From the NCBI RefSeq assembly GCF_013367775.1, contig NZ_CP055157.1, positions 372,001 to 436,000 on the forward strand: a DNA stretch of 64,000 nt, written 5' to 3'. Below, piece after piece: positions 51,949 through 54,109 of the stretch. Both the position numbers and the translations under genes were made by a program. Position 1 is the stretch's first letter, and each line of letters begins with the position of its first letter. The DNA comes from Microbulbifer sp. YPW1 (lineage in GTDB: Bacteria; Pseudomonadota; Gammaproteobacteria; Pseudomonadales; Cellvibrionaceae). The notes under the pieces were generated by a model, which was not told where the DNA came from, searched no databases, and saw nothing but the letters and a program-made list of their open reading frames with translations.

Positions 51949-52803
51949 TTATAACGGCCTGAACCCTGCGAGAATGTCCAGGCCGAGGAGTTTTTTCAGT
52001 ATATCGGTGCCGAACCCAAGCAACTGATCGGGCTCGGGGTGCTGTAAGTCATCGGCCAGCCGCTGCAACAGCATCCGGCCACTGGCTGTCACCGGATAAT
52101 GTGGGGATACGGCGGATGGATCAGCGACCGGGTTCGCATCCTGAATCAGTGTCAACAAATGCGCGGTGACGGCGTTTGCCTCAAGGAAGGCGACAGTATC
52201 AGCTCGATCGCGATATACCACCAGGAACGTCGGAGTTTGCGGCGGTTCTACCGGCCGATGCGCCGGACCGATGTGATGTACCGGATAGTGATAGCTGAGA
52301 TTCCAGGCAAGCGGCGATACCACGGGCGCCCAGTCCAGGATCTGCTCGTCGCTACAGTTTCGCTCGAGGTTATCGGGGAATACCGTATCGCTGACATCCA
52401 GCGCCAGTTCCACCCACTCGTAATGGGCCAGCTCCAGCATAAACGGCGGATCGAATTCAGCCGCCGCACTGACCGCGCGCTCGTTCTGAAGATAGTGGAG
52501 GAACTCTTCGCTGATCTGCAGAAAATACGGACTCTGTGCCGCGTGTCGCTGGACAAAATCGCGCACCATGGCGTGCCACGGTTCATCGTCGAAGATACTG
52601 CGCAGCACCGGAAAACCGCCGGCGATAAAGGACTCAATATTGTTGTAAATCAGGTCCCGGTAGATACCCGCGCGACGGTCTTCAATATCCGCGGGAGCGG
52701 GGACTTCAGCAGGGGCGCGCAAGTGTGCAGCGAACGCCCTCTGCAGTTCAACAAAGCCAGCTTTGCTGCCAGTTCGGTTATGCGCAGGAGTGTCAGCGCC
52801 CAT
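51949..52803 (-). CDS. hvfC: HvfC-type (DUF2063) RiPP maturation partner
   Basis: A 284-aa protein. The N-terminal region GFVELQRAFAAHLRAP and GIYRDLIYNNIESFIAGGFPVLRSIF is the DUF2063 ('putative DNA-binding') signature; ALDVSDTVFPDNL and the C-terminal helical part with LLQRLADDL follow. In HvfABC/bufferin systems this protein partners the DUF692 enzyme and binds the precursor leader, so it is better viewed as a RiPP recognition subunit than a DNA-binding protein. It overlaps hvfB by 11 bases. Last gene of the operon; no DoxX-type hvfD follows, since mlaA is next. Confidence 0.9.
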   Translation of the reverse strand: MGADTPAHNRTGSKAGFVELQRAFAAHLRAPAEVPAPADIEDRRAGIYRDLIYNNIESFIAGGFPVLRSIFDDEPWHAMVRDFVQRHAAQSPYFLQISEEFLHYLQNERAVSAAAEFDPPFMLELAHYEWVELALDVSDTVFPDNLERNCSDEQILDWAPVVSPLAWNLSYHYPVHHIGPAHRPVEPPQTPTFLVVYRDRADTVAFLEANAVTAHLLTLIQDANPVADPSAVSPHYPVTASGRMLLQRLADDLQHPEPDQLLGFGTDILKKLLGLDILAGFRPL

Positions 52804-53659
52804 GAACCACCTCCGCAGTTGATTCGGGACGTTCCGTTACAGCCCCTTCCTGATAGCCCCTTATACGCGCGACCTCAGTGCACAGCTCGGGCAACGGGGG
52901 GATATTGAAGTCTCGCTCCAGCAAGGTGGGCACAGGGCCATACACCTCGTAGGCACGCTGCAGCAACTGCCATACCGGGTCAATCACTGGCGCTCCGTGG
53001 GTATCTACCTTGAGATCTTCCGCCTCATCAAAGTGCCCCGCCACATGGGCGTAACGGATACGCTGCGCGGGAAGGCCCAGCAGGAATGCTTCGGCGTCGT
53101 AGCGGTGATTGGTGGCGTTGACGTAGATATTGTTGACGTCCAGCAACAGGTCGCAATCGGCTTCCTGCAGCACCGCATTCAGAAATTCCAGCTCGGACAT
53201 TTCCTGTCCTGGCGCGGCATAGTAGGAGACGTTCTCCATGGCGATACGCTGCTCGAGGATATCCTGTACCCGCCGGATTCGAGCGGCCACATAGTGCACC
53301 GCTTCTTCGGTAAACGGGATCGGCAACAGGTCGTATAGGTGGCCGTGGTCGGAGCAGTAACTGAGATGTTCGCTGTAACAGCGGATGCCGTGCTCGCGGA
53401 TAAACTGCTTGATGGACTTTACCAGTTCCTCATCGAGCGGTGCCGGCGAGCCGATGGACAGCGACAATCCGTGGGTGACGAAAGGAAAGCGCTCGGTGAA
53501 GGATCTCAACCAGCGCCCGTAGCGACCGCCGACACCGATCCAGTTTTCCGGTGCGACTTCGAGGAAATCCACCTGCTCGGGAGTCAGAGATTCCCCCATC
53601 ATGGATCGCCTGAGCCCCAGGCCGGCGCCATGAACGGGGTACTGGCGCGATTCAGTCAT
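52793..53659 (-). CDS. hvfB: HvfB-type (DUF692) iron-dependent RiPP maturase
   Basis: About 288 aa, a TIM-barrel multinuclear iron enzyme of the MbnB/TglH/HvfB family. Features: GAGLGLRRSMM, VDFLEVAPENWIGVGG, VTHGLSLSIGS, the metal ligands in CYSEHLSYC, IAMENVSYY and CDLLLDVNNIYVNATNH, YAHVAGHFD, and the final Glu-Arg-Asp in TLLERDFNIPP. In characterised relatives it converts Cys-containing motifs of the precursor to oxazolone/thioamide copper ligands. The start is taken at 53659 (AGGA eight bases upstream); an earlier ATG at 53707, directly after the hairpin, is open too. The substrate is almost certainly the EGKCG peptide encoded just upstream. Confidence 0.92.
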   Translation of the reverse strand: MTESRQYPVHGAGLGLRRSMMGESLTPEQVDFLEVAPENWIGVGGRYGRWLRSFTERFPFVTHGLSLSIGSPAPLDEELVKSIKQFIREHGIRCYSEHLSYCSDHGHLYDLLPIPFTEEAVHYVAARIRRVQDILEQRIAMENVSYYAAPGQEMSELEFLNAVLQEADCDLLLDVNNIYVNATNHRYDAEAFLLGLPAQRIRYAHVAGHFDEAEDLKVDTHGAPVIDPVWQLLQRAYEVYGPVPTLLERDFNIPPLPELCTEVARIRGYQEGAVTERPESTAEVVHGR

Positions 53660-53713
53660 AGCGAGAATCCTGGGTACTTTTGTTGATGTCGGGGTCTGCA
53701 CATCCATGCAAGA

Positions 53714-53743
53714 TAAAAAGCAGCCCGGCTCCGGGGCCGGGCT
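53714..53743 (-). terminator. Intrinsic-terminator-like attenuator between hvfA and hvfB
   Basis: On the minus strand the 8-bp perfect stem AGCCCGGC/GCCGGGCT (53736-53743 and 53722-53729) with a 6-base loop is followed by TGCTTTTTAT. It lies between the precursor gene and the maturase gene, so it is likely to make precursor mRNA abundant and pass only a fraction of transcripts to hvfBC. Confidence 0.82.
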
Positions 53744-53767
53744 ACTGTCAGGCGATAGGCTGGGCTA

Positions 53768-54109
53768 TCAAGCGCCGCACTTGCCTTCTTTCTGCTTGCC
53801 CTCGCCACACTTGCCTTCTTTCTGCTTACCTTCGCCGCATTTACCTTCGCCGCACTTGCCCTCTTTCTTTTTGCCTTCTCCGCATTTACCTTCGCCGCAC
53901 TTACCTTCTTTCTTTTTGTCCTCGCCGCATTTACCTTCGCCGCACTTGCCTTCCTTCTTCTTGCCGTGGTCATCGGCCATTTTCAGGTTGTAGCCGGCGG
54001 TCAGCTCGGTAGCGGTAAACGGATTGGCGGAAGTGGAGGTGCTCAGGGTGGCTGAGGCAATGAAAGCGGCACCAACGGCGGCCGCAAGCGGCAGATTCTT
54101 CTTGTTCAT
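53768..54109 (-). CDS. hvfA: HvfA-type copper RiPP precursor with eight EGKCG motifs
   Basis: A 113-aa peptide. Residues 1-28 are a Sec-type signal peptide (PLAAAVGAAFIASATLSTST, then SA-NPF). A linker (about 29-48; ATELTAGYNLKMADDHG) probably serves as recognition sequence. The C-terminal half is almost wholly made of EGKCG units separated by short Lys/Glu spacers: eight EGKCG, hence eight Cys, arranged roughly as 2+2+2+1+1, ending KCGA. This is the substrate pattern of HvfB/HvfC, in which modified Cys motifs bind copper. AGGAG lies 8 bases before the ATG. The DNA shows the matching internal repeats. Secretion to the periplasm is expected. Confidence 0.93.
   Translation of the reverse strand: MNKKNLPLAAAVGAAFIASATLSTSTSANPFTATELTAGYNLKMADDHGKKKEGKCGEGKCGEDKKKEGKCGEGKCGEGKKKEGKCGEGKCGEGKQKEGKCGEGKQKEGKCGA

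Follow-up and report, generated by a model that had tools for sequence, protein, structure and literature searches.

The copper-peptide operon mmrABC of Microbulbifer sp. YPW1 as a probable member of a dispersed ECF-sigma regulon

The closest described relative of the locus analysed here is mmrABC of Microbulbifer strain VAAF005, whose product, bulbicupramide, is regarded as a thiooxazole peptide that binds Cu(I) (PMC12538549). In E. coli, MmrB and MmrC acted on all six Cys of the VAAF005 precursor, each Cys losing 4 H, and a tryptic fragment of the mature peptide bound Cu(I) selectively. The same study poses a puzzle: the operon was present in every Microbulbifer strain examined, with precursors of five to eight Cys (eight in two strains), and yields a copper chelator, yet MmrA-C were undetected in the VAAF005 proteome both without added copper and at 0.1 and 0.2 mM. 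The copper benefit observed in E. coli was slight and variable, and the authors were hesitant to assign copper protection to the operon (PMC12538549). We describe the corresponding locus in a 64,000-nucleotide stretch of contig NZ_CP055157.1 of Microbulbifer sp. YPW1 (the window; positions are those of the window unless prefixed C1), and propose that it probably belongs to a dispersed regulon of an extracytoplasmic function (ECF) sigma factor that likely responds to thiol-oxidising envelope stress.

Related genes have been placed in sigma-factor regulons elsewhere. Haemophilus RpoE2 controls msrAB and, under hypochlorous acid (HOCl), a cluster of DoxX, periplasmic protein, COG3220 and DUF2063 genes (PMC7907618); COG3220 is DUF692, and from this domain content we infer that the cluster is hvf. 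Oxazolin, the product of Haemophilus influenzae hvfABCD, is itself now described as 5-thiooxazole-bearing (PMC13419390; PMC12668002). The sigma-F regulon of Caulobacter comprises YedY, two DUF2282-DUF692-DUF2063 operons, doxX and its own anti-sigma factor, uses the promoter GTAACC-N16-CGAA and responds to dichromate and cadmium (PMC3511200). The meningococcal sigma-E operon includes a DoxX gene together with three hypothetical genes, and msrA/msrB are under the control of sigma-E (PMC2893595, PMC3240639); among residues Cys4, His30, Cys34 and Cys37 of its partner MseR, the three cysteines matter for anti-sigma activity and the histidine does not (PMC2893595). Sigma genes have been noted in Buf1 clusters, and oxidored_molybd and ferric-reductase genes in a few EGKCG clusters (PMC12452194); such clusters have been tied to metal and oxidative stress generally, with citation of the RpoE2 paper (PMC13097082, the journal form of PMC12668002). 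No report of a sigma/mmrABC/doxX/msrPQ regulon in Microbulbifer was found in the open literature searched, and the words "sigma", "DoxX" and "promoter" are absent from the main text of PMC12538549. The mmrABC operon has already been published in this genus (PMC12538549), and neither it nor an eight-Cys precursor is new; the novelty lies in the predicted regulon, in which one sigma factor would govern scattered units, unlinked doxX and msrPQ among them.

The YPW1 locus consists of three genes preceded by a promoter-like element in the gap between hrpA and mmrA:

53768..54109, minus strand: mmrA/hvfA, encoding a precursor of 113 aa with eight EGKCG motifs (open reading frame; NF050137; conserved in the genus)
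52793..53707, minus strand: mmrB/hvfB, multinuclear non-heme iron-dependent oxidative (MNIO; DUF692) enzyme, likely start codon at 53659 (PF05114, NF003818; matches 3bww and MbnB 7dz9)
51949..52803, minus strand: mmrC/hvfC, DUF2063 partner protein (PF09836 and PF22106; NF050145; matches 3dee)
54330..54357, minus strand: predicted ECF-sigma promoter TGTAAGAA-N14-CGACTA (pattern match; conservation in the genus)

A preliminary description of this DNA had recognized an HvfABC-type copper operon for a ribosomally synthesized and post-translationally modified peptide (RiPP) at 51949-54109. The open reading frames and family models confirm this: the mmrA product scored 76.9 bits with NF050137 (HvfA-type KCGExKCG domain; cut-off 19.5), MmrB 441.8 with the HvfB model NF003818 (cut-off 360) and MmrC 296.2 with the HvfC model NF050145 (cut-off 142), scores which argue against a chance origin of the locus. 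With VAAF005 it shares the genus, the three genes and the EGKCG cassettes (PMC12538549). The interpretation offered at that time stood in part. The operon type, the lack of an adjacent DoxX gene and the duplication of cassettes were all supported, but the proposed oxazolone/thioamide modification has been superseded by 5-thiooxazole (PMC12668002, PMC13419390).

Alignment of mmrA upstream regions across the genus revealed the -35/-10-like block on the mmrA strand. In YPW1 it occupies 54357-54330, with 221 nt between its end and the start codon of mmrA; of 45 genomes, 36 have TGTAANA-N15-CGA, exactly so spaced, in the region upstream of mmrA. The pattern TGTAAGAW-N14-CGA has four matches in the 4.58 Mb YPW1 genome. 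All four continue as CGAC, the form ending in CGACTA being found once in the whole genome, at mmrA, and all four stand before one of the following genes:

site i, 54357-54330, minus strand: before mmrA
site ii: about 67 nt before the ECF sigma gene at C1:3833455
site iii: directly before doxX near C1:2709433, 9 nt from the first possible start and 39 nt from the next ATG
site iv: about 110 nt upstream of the earliest possible start codon of a gene encoding an MsrP/YedY-type molybdopterin oxidoreductase

The chance that a random site falls within the 250 nt before a gene of the given class was roughly estimated as 1e-3 for ECF sigma genes, 3e-4 for doxX and 1e-4 each for msrP and mmrA, assuming about 11 ECF genes, three doxX genes, one msrP and one mmrA.

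The sigma factor is a protein of 233 aa that matches TIGR02943 (248.9 bits; cut-off 162.2). A frame overlapping the end of its gene encodes a 68-aa zf-HC2 protein (28.3 bits; cut-off 22.2) with Cys4, His30, Cys34 and Cys37, which by its size and cysteine pattern is a putative zinc anti-sigma factor of the MseR/HrsE kind. The product of the gene behind site iv contains PF00174 (100 bits), and the gene 3' of it encodes a ferric-reductase-like membrane protein whose PF01794 score (25.6; cut-off 28) comes from a sequence that is incomplete at the end of the stretch; from domain and gene arrangement the two were provisionally named MsrP and MsrQ.

The YPW1 genome has three DoxX-domain genes. Among 64 hvf loci fetched from outside Microbulbifer, 46 contained a DoxX hit within the fetched locus (E 1e-3), and in all 46 the best match was to the motif-bearing DoxX and not to either of its two paralogues; 42 of these hits reached E 1e-18 or better, with 47-71% identity. 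An HvfD-type partner is therefore present in YPW1 but unlinked to mmrABC. The preliminary description was thus right that no DoxX gene is adjacent, and had not noted that doxX lies elsewhere under the same promoter-like element, in company with a sigma/anti-sigma pair and msrPQ.

The association of the sigma factor with the mmrA element was then compared across 48 Microbulbifer genomes, 38 of which carry a sigma orthologue (E 1e-20). Among the 45 with a readable mmrA upstream region (G025, with mmrA split between contigs, and G027 and G034, with no precursor, were excluded; G and L numbers are our labels for genomes and loci), 36 had both the sigma gene and the exactly spaced element, eight had neither, one had the sigma gene only and none the element only (Fisher p 4e-8, with kinship not corrected for). 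Put otherwise, the element was found in 36 of 37 sigma-bearing and in none of eight sigma-lacking genomes. On the MmrB tree (47 rows) the nine sigma-lacking genomes need six changes (five to six in bootstrap trees), of which strongly supported branches force only two. The 14-nt spacers are on average 29-39% identical between species of the YPW1 clade and the ends are fixed, so that conservation of the ends goes beyond simple descent. Upstream of the sigma gene itself the element was found in 35 of 38 genomes, with the mmrA spacing in 24 and one base more in 11; one-mismatch forms were seen by eye at the sigma gene in G063, G065 and G005.

These counts also bear on the possibility that mmrABC is a copper-detoxification (bufferin-like) or constitutive unit, transcribed mainly from a vegetative-type -10 block, with the distant ECF-like element of minor importance. 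The block in question is the following:

54205..54210, minus strand: vegetative-type -10 hexamer TATAAT (alignment of upstream regions)

It lies about 95 nt before mmrA in a conserved stretch, and TATAAT or TATACT, the form in many relatives, is kept in most aligned genomes, several sigma-lacking ones included; that the product binds Cu(I) (PMC12538549) also speaks for this view. A sigma-70 promoter scan upstream of mmrA returned none at the threshold of the scan. Given the distribution of the ECF element over sigma-bearing and sigma-lacking genomes, and the absence of MmrA-C from the VAAF005 proteome with and without added copper (PMC12538549), we consider this explanation distinctly unlikely.

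Bare counts of motif sites were rejected as evidence because the reversed control is nearly as common: over the 48 genomes TGTAABAW-N14-CGAC has 136 sites and the control 111, the figures being 128 and 90 in the 38 sigma-bearing genomes and 8 and 21 in the 10 sigma-lacking ones. What carries the case is the position of the sites. The 136 comprise 36 sites at mmrA, 24 at the sigma gene, the doxX and msrP sites of YPW1 and 74 others; 12 of these 74 stand before doxX and nine before msrP. In the fork of the MmrB tree that contains YPW1 (21 rows, support 84/88, partly unresolved), a doxX or msrP site was found in 14 of 15 sigma-bearing and one of six sigma-lacking genomes, the exception being the doxX site of G066 (Fisher p 0.002, without regard to kinship; a genome counted as having no site may lack either the element or the gene itself).

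Taken together, the upstream elements point to a regulon of four unlinked units, ecf-asf, mmrABC, doxX (as a relocated HvfD-type partner) and msrPQ, which the sigma factor would drive once released from the 68-aa anti-sigma factor. The trigger and the division of labour are proposed by analogy with the related systems. Thiol-oxidising envelope stress, with HOCl as the best guess, would oxidize the cysteines of the anti-sigma zinc site and so free the sigma factor. MmrB and MmrC would convert the eight EGKCG cysteines to 5-thiooxazoles, a modification shown for the relative VAAF005, and export would then give a periplasmic Cu(I)-binding peptide. The peptide and DoxX may then shield the periplasm by holding Cu(I) and/or taking up oxidant, and MsrPQ would repair periplasmic methionine sulfoxide. 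We judge this explanation as a whole to be probable. It predicts that hypochlorite or a related envelope-oxidant stress, and not copper, induces the operon, which would explain the lack of copper induction in the published work. The sigma/anti-sigma prediction makes the puzzle of the unexpressed operon directly testable, since it names genes, a promoter and inducers.

Compared with Haemophilus, YPW1 has in common the MNIO, DUF2063 and DoxX genes (PMC13419390, PMC7907618), an ECF sigma factor with a small anti-sigma factor (67 aa for HrsE, 68 aa in YPW1) and a methionine sulfoxide reductase that is co-regulated, in YPW1 by prediction. In Haemophilus, doxX forms part of the cluster and repair is by MsrAB, whereas YPW1 has an unlinked doxX and relies on MsrPQ by prediction. 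Neisseria resembles YPW1 in the zinc-motif anti-sigma factor with Cys4/His30/Cys34/Cys37, in the presence of DoxX in the regulon and in msr genes located elsewhere in the genome; in Neisseria, however, sigma gene and DoxX cluster are linked and repair is by MsrA/MsrB. The YPW1 sigma factor was compared with RpoE2 and the neisserial sigma-E by regulon content and anti-sigma pattern. Caulobacter sigma-F shares YedY (MsrP), the DUF692-DUF2063 operons, doxX and a similar promoter element, but differs in its DUF2282 precursors, its DUF1109 anti-sigma factor, a spacer one base longer by our own count and its response to chromium and cadmium (PMC3511200).

The similarity of its content to that of the sigma-F regulon raises the possibility that the YPW1 regulon is real but is triggered by a metal such as chromate or cadmium and not by hypochlorite. 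The YPW1 anti-sigma factor is not of the DUF1109 type; it is a zinc finger with the size and cysteine pattern of MseR/HrsE, and in Haemophilus a system with such an anti-sigma factor responds to HOCl (PMC7907618). A metal trigger therefore seems rather unlikely. With regard to function, the modified peptide might chiefly be a sacrificial sulfur scavenger of periplasmic oxidants, copper binding being secondary. The predicted co-regulation of mmrABC with msrPQ and doxX would fit such a role, as would the slight and variable copper benefit in E. coli, but the mature fragment binds Cu(I) selectively (PMC12538549), and we regard a predominantly scavenging role as doubtful.

Several observations weigh against the proposed ECF-sigma regulon. 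In the YPW1 genome the reversed control of TGTAAGAW-N14-CGA has six matches, compared with four for the pattern itself, and in the genus-wide search the element was likewise not clearly commoner than its control. Eight genomes keep mmrABC without the sigma gene. In G019 the sigma gene is present and the spacer of the mmrA element is one base longer, and G066, which has no sigma gene, retains the element before doxX. Sites at doxX and msrP occur only in the YPW1 clade, bar one at doxX in G062, and elsewhere in the genus other genes stand 3' of the element; the content of the regulon thus seems to vary within the genus, the sigma gene and mmrA staying. Outside Microbulbifer two hvf loci match the element, and only L098 has it before hvfA. 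The TATAAT block is a possible second promoter. Finally, meningococcal sigma-E was unresponsive to peroxide, diamide and singlet oxygen (PMC2893595 / PMC3240639).

Beyond Microbulbifer, the idea of a universal hvf promoter element was unsupported, as 62 of the 64 loci had no match (some being clipped by contig ends). Linkage of a sigma, anti-sigma or msrP gene to hvf was found in none of these 64 loci by tblastn with the YPW1 proteins (E 1e-3). In locus L098, of Marinobacterium arenosum, the same element stands upstream of an hvfA that encodes twelve EGKCG motifs, and doxX is linked.

A wider reading is that the Microbulbifer thiooxazole peptide is the peptide arm of an envelope-oxidation regulon and not a copper-response product, and that in alpha-, beta- and gammaproteobacteria the same functions come together again, though sigma group and gene linkage differ. 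A single module, made up of thiooxazole peptide, DoxX and repair of methionine sulfoxide, would then act against damage by reactive chlorine or oxidised sulfur, copper handling being one of its parts. We see the arguments for and against this generalization as evenly balanced. The predicted sigma/anti-sigma pair places the absent fourth gene, doxX, and ties the peptide to methionine-sulfoxide repair, a hint at the role of these widespread peptides.

Further features were recorded within and next to the precursor gene:

54026..54109, minus strand: Sec-type signal sequence (residues 1-28), judged by eye from the translation and probably cleaved ahead of NPF
53771..53953, minus strand: pentapeptide array of eight EGKCG units, 2+2+2+1+1 (translation; 45-nt tandem repeat)
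53719..53746, minus strand: terminator-like hairpin between mmrA and mmrB (folding energy -22.5 kcal/mol)

The 113-aa precursor with a signal peptide and eight EGKCG motifs had been described correctly; the signal, read by eye, suggests export of MmrA, and the NPF context at the predicted cleavage site recurs in most relatives. The 2+2+2+1+1 layout is as described. Tandem Repeats Finder gave a 45-nt period with 3.6 copies and 87% matches, as expected if a two-motif cassette of 15 residues had been duplicated, and this supports the growth by duplication suggested earlier. Divided into fives, the array can also be taken as twelve units, of which eight are EGKCG and four are spacers rich in lysine (EDKKK/EGKKK/EGKQK). 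The mmrA product matched no Pfam family above its cut-off, and its score with the HvfA equivalog model NF050188 (50.2 bits) was below the cut-off of 95; we therefore class it with the HvfA-type precursors and not as HvfA proper.

The HvfA-type domain was found in 45 of the 48 genus genomes. A comparison of EGKCG number in relatives, as the preliminary description had suggested, was made over 45 genomes with a complete precursor in one piece, YPW1 included: the number ranged from three to ten, compared with the published five to eight Cys (PMC12538549), and was eight in 13 of the 45. The possibility that the locus is silent or decaying in Microbulbifer can be weighed here. The lack of expression in the published proteomes (PMC12538549) is what such decay would produce, but the domain is retained in nearly all genomes, the precursor frames are open in the 45 complete loci and the promoter-like element is conserved, making this the least credible of the explanations and a very improbable one.

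The extremes of the range were G063 (locus L131), with ten EGKCG, and G017 (locus L018), with three, both beyond the published range. EGTCG, EGSCG, EGNCG or EGRCG variants were present in several precursors of the genus. The domain search missed G011, G027 and G034. Genome G011 has a precursor in which most motifs are spaced apart. In G027 (locus L029) mmrB is present, and neither an EGKCG precursor upstream of it nor the sigma gene was found. Genome G034, rated 100% complete, yielded no HvfA-type domain, no mmrB-like match above 35% identity and no sigma gene, only a more distant MNIO (35% identity) with an adjacent DUF2063 gene, and is an exception to the reported obligate conservation of the operon.

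MmrB is the only PF05114 protein (357 bits) found in the whole YPW1 genome, and its score with the BufB equivalog model was below the cut-off (271; cut-off 310). It aligns over most of its length with the solved DUF692 structure 3bww, and this alignment retains E-N, D-x-N-N, H, D-T-H and E-R-D; its residues 111-269 also align with MbnB 7dz9. MmrC aligns with structure 3dee. As stated in the preliminary description, the DUF692 and DUF2063 frames share 11 bases (52793-52803). Translation of mmrB probably starts at 53659 (Met17) rather than at 53707, because the first ATG (53707) adjoins the T-run of the terminator-like hairpin and because matches from the genus start at residues 11-20 of the frame, with the exceptions of G025 (residue 2) and diverged paralogues. 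Second or third MNIO genes with 34-44% identity to MmrB were found in G006, G007, G013, G016, G017, G022, G023, G027 and G033; these probably belong to other RiPP or bufferin loci. The window is Microbulbifer DNA. A plasmid origin was considered and received no support, no plasmid record having 80% of the operon in one place (the search may omit records of the same or near genomes).

Among 46 loci of the genus, the folding z of the 70 nt 3' of mmrA was below -2 in 31, compared with six of 46 for a control stretch within mmrB; in YPW1 itself the z value was -1.7. The hairpin may terminate transcription in part, or stabilise a 3' end, so that mmrA transcript would exceed that of mmrBC. A genus-wide U-tract terminator after mmrA was not upheld, since only 17 of 46 loci passed a simple terminator test, stable hairpins being commoner (31 of 46), and attenuation is left as possible only. 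A scan of 51800-54600 against Rfam gave one weak match, at this hairpin, which was rejected (18.8 bits; gathering score 35).

In other clades of the genus the element stands before a TVP38-like-looking membrane protein (L228, L240, L243, L258, L294), a DUF547-like protein (L242, L257, L292), a periplasmic thioredoxin-like protein (L265, L270) or a multi-pass membrane protein (L236, L250, L269, L283), all named by eye. Between the two promoter-like elements of mmrA (54184-54300, minus strand) lie conserved GGTTCAC and TTGAACC/GTGAACC arms, the last being CGGAACC in YPW1, and a GTCTGAC box. A GC-rich hairpin is present in the mmrA 5' leader, 3' of the TATAAT.

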